Positions 17,970 to 62,782 of a stretch of DNA of 64,000 nucleotides are shown in pieces. Position 1 is the stretch's first letter, and every line of letters starts with the position of its first letter. Origin of the DNA: Chloroflexota bacterium (GTDB lineage Bacteria > Chloroflexota > Dehalococcoidia > UBA2979); the NCBI GenBank assembly GCA_947472995.1, contig CANJBO010000006.1, positions 1 to 64,000 of the forward strand, written 5' to 3'. The notes below the pieces were generated by a model, which saw nothing but the letters and a program-made list of their open reading frames with translations, did no database searches and was not told where the DNA came from. The position numbers and the translations under genes were made by a program.

Positions 17970-18067
17970 GAGGCCCTCACCCTGCCCTCTCCCATGAATG
18001 GGAGAGGGTTCTGAGTCTGCACCCGGCCCCCTCGCCCATGTATGGGAGAGGGCTGGGGTGAGGGCCT
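17970..18067. repeat. Head-to-head pair of palindromic repeats
   Basis: GGCCCTCACCCTGCCCTCTCCC..GGGAGAGGGTTCTGA....CCCCCTCGCCC..GGGAGAGGGCTGGGGTGAGGGCC between divergent genes. Confidence 0.9.
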
Positions 18068-19114: not shown

Positions 19115-19157
19115 CGGGCGGCCCCCTTGCCCCTCCCGGCGCGGGAGGGGTTCTCAG
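19115..19157. repeat. Solo end-A type repeat (GGCGGCCCC..GCCCCTCCCGGCGCGGGAGGGGTTCT)
   Basis: Matches left ends of the composites at 52.6 and 62.5 kb. Confidence 0.8.
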
Positions 19158-19192
19158 AAGAGCGCGCTCAGCACGCTCCGGGAGTGACGAAC

Positions 19193-21217: not shown

Positions 21218-21678
21218 ACCCGCGCTTCGACGTTCCGGGGTTCTACGCCGGAGAGGCCGCGTCGCCGCGCGATCCCGAGCGCCTGATCATCGTCCCCCGT
21301 CGCGTCGAGGACGGCCGCTTCCTCTTCGCGCGCTGGGGCGACTGGCCGCACCCGACGATGCTCTCCACGCTCGTCCCGTCCGAGGACGAAGGGCTCGCGG
21401 ACGGCATCGAGTCGCTGCTCTACGCGCGGATGCGCGTGCGCGTCGCCGGCACGCCTCGACCGGCCGAGGAGCGCGTGACGGTGCGCATGCCGCACCCCCG
21501 CGGCGGTGGCCCGATGCTCGGCTGGCTGCGCCCCGTCGCCGTCGAGGTCTCCGGCGACCCCACCGCCGACGCGCTGCTCGAGGGCGTCGACGCGCTGACG
21601 CGACAGGAGGCGCTCGCCGGCCTCGCGACGGACGTGGAGCGCGCAGCGTTCCGCGCGGGCGCCGACGCGTTCGCGTAG
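21214..21678 (+). CDS. Hypothetical protein
   Basis: ATGA overlap with M16 peptidase. Confidence 0.7.
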   Translation: MNPRFDVPGFYAGEAASPRDPERLIIVPRRVEDGRFLFARWGDWPHPTMLSTLVPSEDEGLADGIESLLYARMRVRVAGTPRPAEERVTVRMPHPRGGGPMLGWLRPVAVEVSGDPTADALLEGVDALTRQEALAGLATDVERAAFRAGADAFA

Positions 21679-21696
21679 CCACACCCGACGACGTCC

Positions 21697-21790
21697 GCCG
21701 CCCCCATCCCAGCCCTCCCCCGCGAGGGGGAGGGGGCCGGAAGCAGATCAGAACCCTCTCCCCGTTTGGGGAGAGGGCAGGGTGAGGGCC
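21697..21790. repeat. Head-to-head pair of palindromic repeats
   Basis: CCAGCCCTCCCCCGCGAGGGGGAGGGGG...TCAGAACCCTCTCCCCGTTTGGGGAGAGGGCAGGGTGAGGGCC. Confidence 0.9.
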
Positions 21791-21821: not shown

Positions 21822-22592
21822 ATGACAACCACCGACACCACCCCCTCCAACTTCGCCTGGGGCGCCGAGGCGTCCGCCGAGACCGGCGTGCGCGAGCGCG
21901 ACTTCACCGTGACCGTGGACGGCGAGGCGATCCCCGGCGTGCTGTGGAGCCCGGAGGGCGCGACCGGCCCGTTGCCGCTGGTGCTGATGGGCCACGGCGG
22001 CCAGTCCAACAAGCGCGCCGACCGCATGCAGTCGATCGGCCGGCGGCTCGCGCGGCGGCAGGGGTTCATGGCCGCCTCGATCGATCAGATCGAGCACGGC
22101 GACCGCGGGACGATCACCCTCGACGATGACACCGACTACCGCGCGATGTGGAAGCGCGACGGGCTGATGGCCGCCTCGACGCGCGGGTGGCGCGGGGTCG
22201 CCGCGGCGCTCACCGCGCTGCCCGAGGTCGACGCGGACCGCCTCGGCTACTGGGGCCTGTCGATGGGGACGATGTTCGGCATGGCGTTCGTCGCAGAGGA
22301 GCCGCTGATCCGCGCGGCGGTCCTCGGCCTCGCGAGCCTGACCGGGCCGAGCGTGGACCGCAGCGGCATCCGCCCGACGTTCGAGGCGTACGCGCCGCAG
22401 GTGACGTGCCCCGTGATGTGGGTCGTGCAGTGGGACGACGAGCGCTTCGACCTCGACGGCTCGATCGAGCTGTACAAGCTGCTGGGCAGCAAGAACAAGC
22501 GCCTGATCGCGTTCCCCGGCCTCCACGCCGAGGCCCCCGACGAATCGACCGCCCTCACCCGCGAGTTCCTCGGCCGCGAGCTGACGCGGTAG
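21822..22592 (+). CDS. Alpha/beta hydrolase (dienelactone-hydrolase-like)
   Basis: VLMGHGGQSNKR, YWGLSMGTMFGMA nucleophile elbow. Confidence 0.85.
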   Translation: MTTTDTTPSNFAWGAEASAETGVRERDFTVTVDGEAIPGVLWSPEGATGPLPLVLMGHGGQSNKRADRMQSIGRRLARRQGFMAASIDQIEHGDRGTITLDDDTDYRAMWKRDGLMAASTRGWRGVAAALTALPEVDADRLGYWGLSMGTMFGMAFVAEEPLIRAAVLGLASLTGPSVDRSGIRPTFEAYAPQVTCPVMWVVQWDDERFDLDGSIELYKLLGSKNKRLIAFPGLHAEAPDESTALTREFLGRELTR

Positions 22593-22627: not shown

Positions 22628-23053
22628 CGATCGAGGCACCACGTTGGCGGCCCATCCCCTGCCCCTTCCCTGCGCGGGAAGAGGTTGTTTCTGATGGGGT
22701 TGCACCCCATCAGGGCGTTGCCCCGCTTGAGTGAACAGGCCCGGTCATCGCCCCTTGCAGCATCGAGAGCGACATCAGCGTCGCGAGCTCCGCCGGTGTC
22801 ACGACGCGCGAGGCGATGCAATGAGTTGTGTTCGTGCGCGACTGCCGCGCGTAGCCCTCGGTCGAGATCGGTCAGGACGCGCGAGACGAGTGCGTCGCGA
22901 TCACGCCGACGAACGTGCGTCGGGATCGGCGACGCCACACAAGTTCGTTGGTCTGCATCATGGATGTTTGAAGGACGAAGTCCTTCAATGTTCATCCCCT
23001 TCCCGCGCAGGGAAGGGGCAGGGGATGGGCCGCCCCACGTGGTGCCTCGATCG
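22628..23053. mobile_element. Composite 426-bp MITE-like element with ~57-bp terminal inverted repeats
   Basis: Ends CGATCGAGGCACCACGT(TG/GGG)GCGGCCCATCCCCTGCCCCTTCCCTGCGCGGGAAG(A/G)GG in inverted orientation; no transposase inside. Confidence 0.75.
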
Positions 23054-23105: not shown

Positions 23106-24224
23106 CTACTGCTCGATGCGCTGCCAGAGGACGCGGTCGTCGATCTCCATGCGGCGCACGCGGCCGTCCTCGACGAGCACCTGCAGGTGCGACAGCGTCT
23201 CGCCGAGAGCGGCGCGGCGCTTGTAGATGCTGAACGTGTTCCACGGCTTGCTCCACGTCACGCCCTCGGCGACCTCGGTCGCGGAGAGGCGCGAGACGCC
23301 GAGCGCCGTGTCGACCTCGTCGAGGCGCTGGTCGTGGTGCTCGAGGATCTCGAGACAGCGAGCGGGCAGGTTCTCGATCGTGTCCTGGTGCGCGGGCAGG
23401 CCGAGCACAGTATCGAGCGCGGCGACCTTCTGCAGCGACTCGCGGAACTCGCGCAGCGGCGAGCGGGCGATGTCCTCGTCCTCCGCCGACACCGAGACGT
23501 TCGGGGTGATGCGCGAGAGCACGTGGTCGCCGGTGAACGTGAACTTGCGGTTGGGCTCGTGCAGGCAGAGGTGGCCGGGCGTGTGGCCCGGCGTCCACAC
23601 CGCCTGCAGCGTCCACCCGTCGAACGAGTACTCCTCGCCGTCGCGCAGCCGCACGTCCGGCTCGATGCGGCCCATCGCGCGCGTCGCCATCTCCGACTCG
23701 GTCGCGGTGTCGGACGTTCCGGCCGCGCGGCGCGCCGCCATCTCCTGCTCGACCTCGCGCTCCTCGCGGAAGCGCTGGTTGAAGCCGTCGTCGATGTCCG
23801 TCTCGCGCACCGACATGTCGAGGCCGTGGCGGAACGCCCACGCGTCCCCGCCTCGACGTGCCGCGTCCGGGTCGGTGTAGTGCGTGTGGGGGAAGCGCTC
23901 CTGCCCCATCATCACCAGCTCGCACCCGGGCGACTGCGACTTGATCCAGCGCGCCATGCCGAGGTGGTCGCCGTGTGCGTGCGAGACCAGCAGCCGCTTG
24001 ATGTCGGAGACCTCGCCGCCGATCTCGCGCACCTGCTCGGTCAGCGCGTCGATCGCGCCTCGCGTCCCGTAGCCGCAGTCGAAGAGCGTCAGCCCGTCGT
24101 TGCCGCGGAACACGTACGGCGTCGTCCAGCCGAGGCCGCCGGCGACCATGGGGATGCTGAGCCGGAACAGGCCGGGAATGATCTCTTGCACCACGGGACG
24201 GGCCTTTCCAGTCGACGCGCTCAT
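23106..24224 (-). CDS. MBL-fold metallo-hydrolase (large, lactamase_B type)
   Basis: LLVSHAHGDHLG, TPGHTPGHLCLHEP, FTGDHVLS. Confidence 0.93.
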   Translation of the reverse strand: MSASTGKARPVVQEIIPGLFRLSIPMVAGGLGWTTPYVFRGNDGLTLFDCGYGTRGAIDALTEQVREIGGEVSDIKRLLVSHAHGDHLGMARWIKSQSPGCELVMMGQERFPHTHYTDPDAARRGGDAWAFRHGLDMSVRETDIDDGFNQRFREEREVEQEMAARRAAGTSDTATESEMATRAMGRIEPDVRLRDGEEYSFDGWTLQAVWTPGHTPGHLCLHEPNRKFTFTGDHVLSRITPNVSVSAEDEDIARSPLREFRESLQKVAALDTVLGLPAHQDTIENLPARCLEILEHHDQRLDEVDTALGVSRLSATEVAEGVTWSKPWNTFSIYKRRAALGETLSHLQVLVEDGRVRRMEIDDRVLWQRIEQ

Positions 24225-28080: not shown

Positions 28081-28206
28081 GAGCCCCCACCCCAGCCCCT
28101 CCCCCGCGAGGGGGAGGGGCTGGACGCCCCAGGATCACCGGCCGACGCGCGAGTAGCGCCCTTCAGAACCCTCGTCCATTGATGGGAGAGGGCAGGGTGA
28201 GGGCCG
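28081..28206. repeat. Pair of palindromic repeats
   Basis: CCCCACCCCAGCCCCTCCCCCGCGAGGGGGAGGGGCTGG ... CAGAACCCTCGTCCATTGATGGGAGAGGGCAGGGTGAGGGCC. Confidence 0.9.
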
Positions 28207-32474: not shown

Positions 32475-33548
32475 CTAGCCTCCGATGTACGACATCTCGA
32501 CGCGGCGGAGGCCGGCGGTCGAGGCGGAGCGCTGCTCCGAGTAGCGATCCTCGCGCGCCGTCCACGTGGCGTCGATGAGCGCGAGGAGATCTTCATCGGT
32601 CGCGCCGCTGCGCATCGCGGCGCGGAAGTCGGCGCCGGCCTCGGCGGCGAAGAGGCAGGTGTAGATCGATCCCTCCGCGGAAAGGCGGGCGCGGGTGCAG
32701 GTGCCGCAGAACGGCTGCGTCACGGAGGTGATGACGCCGATCTCGCCGGCGCCGTCGCGGTAGCGATAGCGCCGCGCGACCTCGCCCTCGTAGCTCGCCT
32801 CGATCGGCTCCAGCGGGAACTCGGCGTCGATCTGGCGCACGAGGTCGGCGGCCGGGACCACCTCGTCCATCTGCCAGCCGTTGGTGCTGCCGACGTCCAT
32901 GAACTCGATGAACCGCACGATGTGCGGCGTGCCGCGGAAGTGCCGCGCGAGGTCGAGCAGCGTGTGGTCGTTCACGCCGCGGCGCACGACCGCGTTCACC
33001 TTCACCGGCAGCCCGGCGGCCTCGGCGGCGTCGATGCCCTCAAGCACCATCGCCACCGGGAAGTCCATGTCGTTCATCGAGCGGAACACCGCGTCGTCGA
33101 GGGAGTCGAGGCTCACGGTGACGCGATCGAGGCCGGCGCGGGCGAGCGGCTCCGCCATCGTCTTCAGCAGCGTGCCGTTGGTGGTCATCGCAATGTCCAT
33201 GCCGGGGATCGCGTCGAGCATCTCCACCAGCGCCGGAAGCTGGGCGCGCAGCGTCGGCTCGCCCCCGGTGAGGCGGAGCTTCCTCACGCCGCGCGAGGCG
33301 AACAGGCGGGCGATCCGCGCGATCTCCTCGAACGTCATGATCTCGGCGCGCGGGAGGAAGGCGAAGTCCGCGCCGAAGACTTCCTTGGGCATGCAGTAGC
33401 GGCAGCGGAAGTTGCAGCGGTCGGTGACCGAGATGCGGAGATCGTGCAGCGGCCGCCCGAGCCGGTCCACGAGGACAGGCGCGCCCGAGGATGCCTCGAG
33501 GGGCGCGTGCCCCTCGATCTCCGAGGAGTCGAGGTCTGGGTGGGGCAT
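32475..33548 (-). CDS. moaA: GTP 3',8-cyclase
   Basis: [41 protein letters not shown]. Confidence 0.97.
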
Positions 33549-33605
33549 GCATCCAGTGTAATCCCTGTCGTGCGCTGGACCGGAGGCGGGAGGGACGGAA
33601 GCGGA

Positions 33606-33652
33606 AGCCCTCACCCCAGCCCTCTCCCACAGGTGGGAGAGGGGGCCGGATG
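33606..33652. repeat. Solo palindromic repeat between divergent moaA and rsmJ-like gene
   Basis: GCCCTCACCCCAGCCCTCTCCCACAGGTGGGAGAGGGGGCC. Confidence 0.85.
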
Positions 33653-33675
33653 CTCGTTCCCGCTACGATCACCTG

Positions 33676-34506
33676 ATGGACGACCTGACCGAGGCCTCCG
33701 AGCGCGCAGTGGTGGTCGTCGTCACCTCGACCGACCCGGCGCTGCGCGCGACGGCCGCCGCCCGCGCCGAGGCGCTCGGCCTGTCGTTCGTCAACGACGC
33801 CGCGGGGCTCCCCGCGGGGACGCTGCTGCTCACCCTCGACGCCGACGGCTGGTCGCTGGCCGACCCGGCGCCGGGCGCACCGGGGGCGGTCCGCGCCGAT
33901 CTGATCGGGGGCGGGCTGGGCGAACGGCTGCGGCAGGGGGGGCGCGGCGAGGGCCGCCTGGCGTCCGCGCTGGGCCTGAAGCGCCACCCGGGCGCGCGCG
34001 TGCTGGACGCGACGGCCGGCCTCGGGCGGGAGAGCGCGCTCGCGGCGGCGCTCGGCTGCACGGTGATCGCCTGCGAGCGCTCGCCGATCGTCGGCACGCT
34101 GCTGCGTGACGGCTTCGACCGCGCCGCCGAGGAGCCCGGCCTCGCGCTGGTCCTCGATCGCATCGACCTGCGCGTCGAGGATGCGCGCGACGTGCTGGCG
34201 TCGCTCGCCGCGGGCGACGACGAGGCGCGCCCGGACGCGGTGATCGTCGACCCGATGTTCCCCGAGCGCAGCAAGGCGGCACGCGCGAAGAAGGAGATGC
34301 AGCTGCTGCAACGGCTGCTCGGCCCGGACGACCCGCGCGACACGATCGCGCTGATCGAGGCGGCGCTCGCGACGGCGCGGCGACGCGTGATCCTCAAGCG
34401 CCCCGCGCACGCGCCGCAGGTGGCCGGCGTGCGCGCGCCCGACCTCGAGGTGCCCGGGCGCTCGGCGCGCTACGACGTGTACCTGATCGCCCCGCCGCGG
34501 CTGTAG
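33676..34506 (+). CDS. rsmJ: RsmJ-like 16S rRNA (guanine1516-N2)-methyltransferase
   Basis: RLRQGGRGEGRLASALGLK..VLDATAGLGRESALAAALGCTVIACERSPI..DPMFPERSKAARAKKEMQLLQRLLG..ILKRP. Confidence 0.85.
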   Translation: MDDLTEASERAVVVVVTSTDPALRATAAARAEALGLSFVNDAAGLPAGTLLLTLDADGWSLADPAPGAPGAVRADLIGGGLGERLRQGGRGEGRLASALGLKRHPGARVLDATAGLGRESALAAALGCTVIACERSPIVGTLLRDGFDRAAEEPGLALVLDRIDLRVEDARDVLASLAAGDDEARPDAVIVDPMFPERSKAARAKKEMQLLQRLLGPDDPRDTIALIEAALATARRRVILKRPAHAPQVAGVRAPDLEVPGRSARYDVYLIAPPRL

Positions 34507-35689: not shown

Positions 35690-35790
35690 AGGGCCCTCAC
35701 CCTGCCCTCTCCCCAAACGGGGAGAGGGTTCTGATCTGTTCCGACCCCTCTCCCCGTTTCGGGGAGAGGGTTGGGGTGAGGGCTTCTGCT
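35690..35790. repeat. Head-to-head pair of palindromic repeats
   Basis: GGCCCTCACCCTGCCCTCTCCCCAAACGGGGAGAGGGTTCTGAT...CCCCTCTCCCCGTTTCGGGGAGAGGGTTGGGGTGAGGGC. Confidence 0.9.
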
Positions 35791-41027: not shown

Positions 41028-41050
41028 CGCACGCGATCCGTTCGAGGGCC

Positions 41051-41126
41051 ACGTGGGGCGGCCCACCCCTGCCCTCCCGGCGCGGGAGGGGTTGAGATTG
41101 ATGAGCTTCCACCCTCATCGGCTCCC
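41051..41126. repeat. Solo end-A type repeat with second hairpin
   Basis: GGGCGGCCCACCCCTGCCCTCCCGGCGCGGGAGGGGTTGAGATTGATGAGCTTCCACCCTCATC. Confidence 0.8.
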
Positions 41127-52625: not shown

Positions 52626-52834
52626 GAGGGGCGGCCCACCCCTGCCCCTCCCGGCGCGGGAGGGGTTCTGAACTTCAGAGATGATGCGAGGAGCTGCGCC
52701 CTCACACTCCCGGCGGATTGGTCAGACTCCGACTCTGCGTTCGGATCAGGATGCTCGAAGGGGCTACGCCCCTTCGAATCTCATCCCCTTCCCGCGCAGG
52801 GAAGGGGCAGGGGATGGGCCGCCCTGCGGTTGAA
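52626..52834. mobile_element. Composite repeat element (end A ... end B, inverted)
   Basis: Left GGGCGGCCCACCCCTGCCCCTCCCGGCGCGGGAGGGG; right CCCCTTCCCGCGCAGGGAAGGGGCAGGGGATGGGCCGCCC; inner hairpin TCGAAGGGGC-TAC-GCCCCTTCGA. Confidence 0.7.
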
Positions 52835-57346: not shown

Positions 57347-57348
57347 GC

Positions 57349-57442
57349 CCCTCGCCCTGCCCTCTCCCGACCGGGAGAGGGTTCTGAGTTCGGAAGTCTG
57401 GCCCCCTCTCCCCGTTCGGGGAGAGGGCTGGGGTGAGGGCAT
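57349..57442. repeat. Head-to-head pair of palindromic repeats
   Basis: CCCCTCGCCCTGCCCTCTCCCGACCGGGAGAGGGTTCTGAG...CCCCCTCTCCCCGTTCGGGGAGAGGGCTGGGGTGAGGGC. Confidence 0.9.
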
Positions 57443-62530: not shown

Positions 62531-62782
62531 GCAGGGCGGCCCACCCCTGCCCCTCCCGGCGCGGGAGGGGTTCTGAATCAGAAAGATGTTGTGAGGAGCT
62601 GCGCCCCTCACACTCCCGGCGGAGCCAGAACCGGGAGCCAAATACCGCCGGAATCGGTCGTTCACAACGAGCGACCGGGTCCTGAACAGCGGGGCGCAGT
62701 GCTGATGGGGTGCAACCCCATCAGAGAACCAAACCCCTTCCCGCGCAGGGAAGGGGGGCAGGGGGATGGGCGCCCCGCGATA
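62531..62782. mobile_element. Composite repeat element (end A ... end B, inverted)
   Basis: Left GGGCGGCCCACCCCTGCCCCTCCCGGCGCGGGAGGGGTTCTGA; right CCCCTTCCCGCGCAGGGAAGGGGGGCAGGGGGATGGGCGCCCC; inner hairpin CTGATGGGG-TGCAA-CCCCATCAG. Confidence 0.7.

Follow-up and report, generated by a model that had tools for sequence, protein, structure and literature searches.

What kind of sequence occupies the 426 bp at 22628-23053 of this window (the whole 64-kb stretch of DNA analysed, from a freshwater Chloroflexota (Dehalococcoidia) draft genome), and how did it acquire its present form? The first-pass annotation described a MITE-like element with near-matching inverted ends, no transposase, and a site between convergent genes. 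When aligned by BLAST in inverted orientation, 22628-22687 and 22993-23053 are identical in 57 of 61 columns; the remaining four comprise three mismatches and a single-base gap. The inverted arms thus stand as described, with two corrections: the match runs weakly outwards to 22620 and 23061 (22620-22687/22993-23061, 69 columns, 90%, E=4e-18), and the inner segments are hairpins that differ between the two sides. No other close long inverted repeat is found in the whole window at E<=1e-4 by strand-against-strand BLAST. The convergent setting and the lack of a transposase inside 22628-23053 are both confirmed. The locus is organized as follows.

Stop at 22592, plus strand: alpha/beta-hydrolase gene, the upstream neighbour.
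22628-22687, plus strand: left R-type arm with outer box CGATCGAGGCACCACGT, TGGCGGCCCATCCCCTGCC, and hairpin 1 (22662-22684), recognized by inverted identity to the right arm.
22691-22713, no strand: inner hairpin CTGATGGGGTTGCACCCCATCAG, R-inner variant 1, by direct reading.
22734-22961, no strand: interior of 228 bp, unique except for the captured fragment.
22767-22815, minus strand: captured 49-bp fragment from the 3' part of an RluB/RsuA-type pseudouridine synthase gene (ASRV.TPAELA.LMSL; 92% identity).
22968-22988, no strand: inner hairpin TTGAAGGACGAAGTCCTTCAA, R-inner variant 2, different from the left one, by direct reading.
22993-23053, minus strand: right R-type arm with hairpin 1 (22996-23018) and outer box ACGTGGTGCCTCGATCG.
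Stop at 23106, minus strand: gene for a metallo-beta-lactamase-fold protein, the downstream neighbour.

Used as queries against the draft genome that contains the window (1.78 Mb in 55 contigs, 73% complete), the ends of this copy recover about 50 arm matches, most of which pair convergently, 185-390 bp apart. The exact pattern GGCGGCCCAYCCCC occurs 29 times, compared with a single occurrence of the reversed control. A normal copy consists of two different arms, L and R. The L arm is GGCGGCCCACCCCTGCCCCTCCCGGCGCGGGAGGGGTTCTGA followed by an inner hairpin such as TGTGAGGAGCTGCGCCCCTCACA, and the R arm is the reverse complement GGCGGCCCATCCCCTGCCCCTTCCCTGCGCGGGAAGGGG followed by a variable inner hairpin. 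A looser outer box, roughly GTCGAGGTGGCAGCGTGG, lies outside both. Solo arms are common in the family, and the window harbors both paired and solo forms.

52630-52823, plus strand: canonical L-R copy of 194 bp.
62535-62773, plus strand: canonical L-R copy of 239 bp.
41039-41117, plus strand: solo L arm with outer box.
19116-19160, plus strand: degenerate solo L-like arm.

The left arm of the 22628-23053 copy is typed R because it shares CATCCCC and CTTCCC...GGGAAG with the R ends of other copies, such that R arms occupy both sides. The hairpin class of CTGATGGGGTTGCACCCCATCAG also adjoins the R arms of W62, L005, L014, L017, L020, and others, and that of TTGAAGGACGAAGTCCTTCAA adjoins the R arms of L002, L015, L026, and L029. 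Because the two inner hairpins differ, one arm was not copied onto the other, and the R ends derive from two sources. The copy is therefore an R-R recombinant, a non-canonical member of an L-R family; the MITE-like label given by the first-pass annotation holds up. L012 is a second R-R copy. The preferred reading, to which a probability of about 0.68 is assigned, is that 22628-23053 represents an aberrant R-R member of a multi-hairpin, non-autonomous family of the MITE-like/TIR-dimer kind, reshaped by template switching and arm exchange.

Family copies are also scattered in the sister species, and five genomes of the same genus are copy-rich. Most other genera of the same taxonomic family have no copies or few, and the few exact arm matches in a GTDB-based collection fall mostly in Chloroflexota/Dehalococcoidia drafts. 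One exact match lies on CANREY010000024.1 (L094), which is titled uncultured Oscillospiraceae, possibly through binning contamination or mis-titling; the title Dehalococcoides mccartyi of the CAMDAY01 records L095 and L097 (38-kb and 4.6-kb contigs) likewise looks wrong. A phage carrier was rejected, the viral collection being free of exact arm matches, as was a known RNA family, since Rfam identifies one tRNA only in the window. By a rough codon-composition call, the gene context of the copies is convergent in 18 cases, tandem in 15, and divergent in 5.

Comparison with sister genomes shows the same gene pair separated by about 40 bp in G001, 108 bp in G003, and 140 bp in G005, all without the element, and G004 carries a different family copy beside the downstream gene. 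The annotation had named two findings that would speak against a mobile element, the same sequence fixed at this site in sister strains and ends that never pair elsewhere. Neither is seen: empty sites exist, and paired ends are found dozens of times elsewhere. Thirteen G005 sites could be located in the sister G003, with flanks roughly 82-97% identical; in G003, eight of them are coreless, one has the core inverted, and four carry a core. In both of the core-bearing sites compared in full (2 of the 4), the interiors differ. At L152 (G003:C2:8300-9800), G003 has an unrelated, possibly coding segment of about 1.2 kb where G005 has a copy.

Two of the coreless G003 sites retain a small hairpin built of the outer boxes. 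This prompted the idea that the outer box is an independent target hairpin into which cores insert, a candidate that was rejected. A search for free-standing outer-box hairpins lacking a core gave one in 258 kb, adjoining a copy, and the box is therefore assigned to the arm itself. In G003, half of a neighbouring hairpin is missing as well at the L202 site, and this coreless site is better read as a deletion. Since some "empty" sites look like deletions, part of the presence/absence pattern may be loss. The difference between sisters is real, with gain and loss inseparable in these genomes, which are incomplete drafts (73-93%) in which short-read assembly of repeats can err.

In each of 37 L-R copies, the two outer arms form a single terminal stem with each other, accompanied by hairpins. 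The R-inner base pairs vary among these copies as CG/GC/TA, AT/TA/GC, and AT/GC with pairing kept by compensatory changes; thus, R-inner is conserved as a hairpin and not as a sequence. Beyond the consensus, the two flanks of several copies match each other in inverted orientation, in a sequence peculiar to the copy and equally far out on each side (20 bp at 10/10 in L002, 13 bp at 8/8 in L114, and 14 bp at 29/29 in one G005 copy), and the 22628-23053 copy has 17 bp of such flanks. Template switching between imperfect inverted repeats reportedly makes the arms alike and flips the spacer (PMC8604942), and the matched flanks, like the sister copy in opposite orientation, resemble such products.

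The interior provides a further line of evidence. Across six genomes of the genus, the strong matches of 22734-22961 are itself and the 49-bp gene fragment, 22767-22815, which is 92% identical to G000:C1:13103-13151 (E=7.7e-13 per genome). The minus-strand ORF-like stretch, previously taken as a possible passenger remnant, proves to be one in part, as 16 of its codons derive from a real gene. Gene pieces of 64-99 bp are present in three of the four other copies with long interiors; these three copies lie at C12:23811-24191, C25:1594-1907, and C15:24262-24651. The longest of them has its source within the window.

21286-21384, plus strand, in the gene 21237-21680: source of the 99-bp fragment in L014 (contig C12), 92% identity, E=2e-33.

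The second is a 64-bp piece of pyrG, 84-89% identical to sister species (the host's own pyrG is absent from the assembly), and the third is about 65 bp of purL, roughly 75-82% identical to sister species and, at 55 bits, the weakest case. In 400 Markov-resampled interiors, scores did not exceed 41.9 bits against a target set smaller than whole genomes, which argues that the fragments, sampled from one genome, are not a by-product of GC-rich composition. Six G005 interiors gave no gene match.

Three further explanations can be weighed against these fragments. In the first, the element would be a bacterial Pack-MITE: template switching at the hairpins of a structured, non-autonomous repeat would bring in 50-100-bp core-gene fragments time after time and would also keep its arms matched. 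This extension is regarded as possible but tentative. Plant Pack-MITEs and Pack-MULEs are TIR elements with host gene fragments; they are eukaryotic and far more numerous, and their transposases are known. The likeness to the present family lies in the host-gene fragments within a TIR element and is a resemblance only. A term search of a review of prokaryotic MITEs (PMC10969869) returned no mention of gene fragments or their capture.

In the second, the locus would be a composite of two adjacent decayed elements and a decayed gene, with the R-R arrangement and the fragment as leftovers of deletions. Solo arms are common, in keeping with this, and the L006 locus has an intact fpg-like gene with an L arm on one side and a degenerate L..R copy on the other. 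However, all four fragments measure 49-99 bp and each lies between conserved inner hairpins, and the assembled source genes are intact elsewhere, such that an extra gene copy would be needed every time. A composite origin is accordingly judged unlikely. The L006 gene itself (G000:C15, ~32685-33877; a Fpg/MutM-like DNA glycosylase, named by eye) was considered as the cargo of an fpg-carrying composite element, and this was rejected because the upstream solo L arm and the degenerate downstream copy are separate.

In the third, the elements would act as functional guides, structured RNAs whose antisense or sense pieces regulate the corresponding core genes. Three of the four sources are indeed core genes (pyrG, purL, and pseudouridine synthase), and the pieces reside in a structured element beside transcribed genes. 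This is nevertheless highly improbable given that orientations are mixed, identity is 75-92% and partly to sister species, one fragment carries indels, and the six tested sister interiors have no fragments.

The identity of the mover bears on the two remaining alternatives. The first-pass annotation suggested a trans-acting IS200/IS605 or REP-associated TnpA. The transposase search covered Y1 families: PF01797 (Y1 transposase) is absent from six genomes of the genus, which, as incomplete drafts, make absence short of proof, and none of 37 Y1 loci of the class is flanked by the family's GGCGGCCCA arms. A RAYT/IS200-type transposase is therefore not supported as the mover by these searches.

A second hairpin-pair family, family B (CCCTCACCCTGCCCTCTCCC...GGGAGAGGGTTCTGA, ~95-120 bp), is also present in the window.

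17972-18066: family B copy.
21700-21790: family B copy.
28085-28204: family B copy.
35693-35786: family B copy.
57348-57441: family B copy.

The GGGGTGAG present in family B agrees with GGGGWSAS, the motif of TIRYT-flanking TIRs, and the family has the GGGTTCTGA step in common with the L arm of the main family. In G005, L118 (93-414) consists of a half copy of this second (CCCTCACCC) family nested within a main-family copy.

In a REPIN/TIRYT-type element, a Y1 tyrosine transposase (RAYT/TIRYT) would move pairs of hairpin TIRs in single-stranded form. Inverted pairing of hairpin arms with the dimer as the normal state, sites at gene 3' ends and between convergent genes as for REPs (PMC3733652), and the GGGGTGAG of family B are all in keeping with it. 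However, besides the Y1 results (0/6 genus genomes and 0/37 class loci), the GTAG tag and GGGGWSAS are absent, by reading, from the main-family arms, which show GGGGATGGG or GGGGTGGG, and such an element is an improbable identity for 22628-23053. Like TIRYT-associated TIR dimers (Di Nocera et al. 2013, PMC3733652), the family is made of dispersed inverted pairs of self-complementary units that carry no gene; unlike them, it has no linked Y1 transposase among the loci searched. The repeating unit of REPINs/RAYT (PMC3116915) is likewise two inverted hairpin units, whereas the units here are larger (~90-100 nt, two hairpins each) and no RAYT was found in the genus. Many outer boxes of the main family start with CGTC. 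CGTC-tagged REPs have a single short hairpin with an 8-9-bp stem and an unpaired CGTC tag, in contrast to the two long hairpins per unit observed here.

Alternatively, the parent could be a classical DDE-transposase IS with long TIRs, and the family would be a MITE that it moves in trans. Long near-perfect TIRs in many copies without a transposase fit this proposal, as does one G005/G003 site where the insertion as a whole is bordered by an 8-10-bp direct repeat, GAGGTGCG(CG). Target-site direct repeats of MITEs are expected in young copies and are lost with age. In 38 copies, however, flank direct repeats average 7.6 bp in true pairs and 7.7 bp in mismatched pairs; a general target-site duplication was rejected for want of any excess, in agreement with the earlier remark that none was clear at this locus. 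The lone direct-repeat site could be a microhomology deletion, and among the loci read, no transposase-bearing autonomous copy lies between such arms. A DDE-moved MITE is thus a doubtful, though conceivable, identity.

In comparison with prokaryotic MITEs (e.g., Chunjie and QMITE1/2; PMC10969869), the family shares a size below 500 bp, inverted repeats, absence of a transposase, multiple intergenic copies, folding transcripts, and truncated copies. It differs in being GC-rich, in TIRs longer than the usual 4-30 bp and bearing their own hairpins, in lacking general target duplication and, in the search for Y1 transposases, any parent IS found, and in containing host-gene fragments. TIME/TIME-COMP (PMC4133298) similarly show that paired miniature elements can enclose unrelated DNA, although TIMEs are Tn3-related and enclose functional genetic modules rather than 50-100-bp scraps. 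The present family is new but belongs to a known kind, that of non-autonomous inverted-repeat/TIR-dimer repeats, and is unusual in its strong copy-specific arm matching and its repeated core-gene scraps.

For the preferred R-R reading, the following course of events is proposed. We infer that family members transposed, and their past spread would have depended on a trans-acting enzyme. The resident arms and hairpins would then cause DNA polymerase template switching or recombination, which would equalize both arms of a copy and, by the same process, invert or swap the core. L and R arms exchanged between copies would give rise to the R-R form at 22628-23053, and short filler pieces of other genes would be stitched into the interior as a further product. 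At gene 3' ends, the transcribed hairpins may double as terminators or mRNA caps.

Many families of REP-like and MITE-like repeats have no evident mover, and they are poorly explained. In this one, arms match copy by copy, cores are inverted or replaced while the site stays the same, and the repeat contains pieces of pyrG, purL, and a gene for a pseudouridine synthase. Template switching at hairpins is therefore a testable route by which bacterial repeats may change and gain host sequence.
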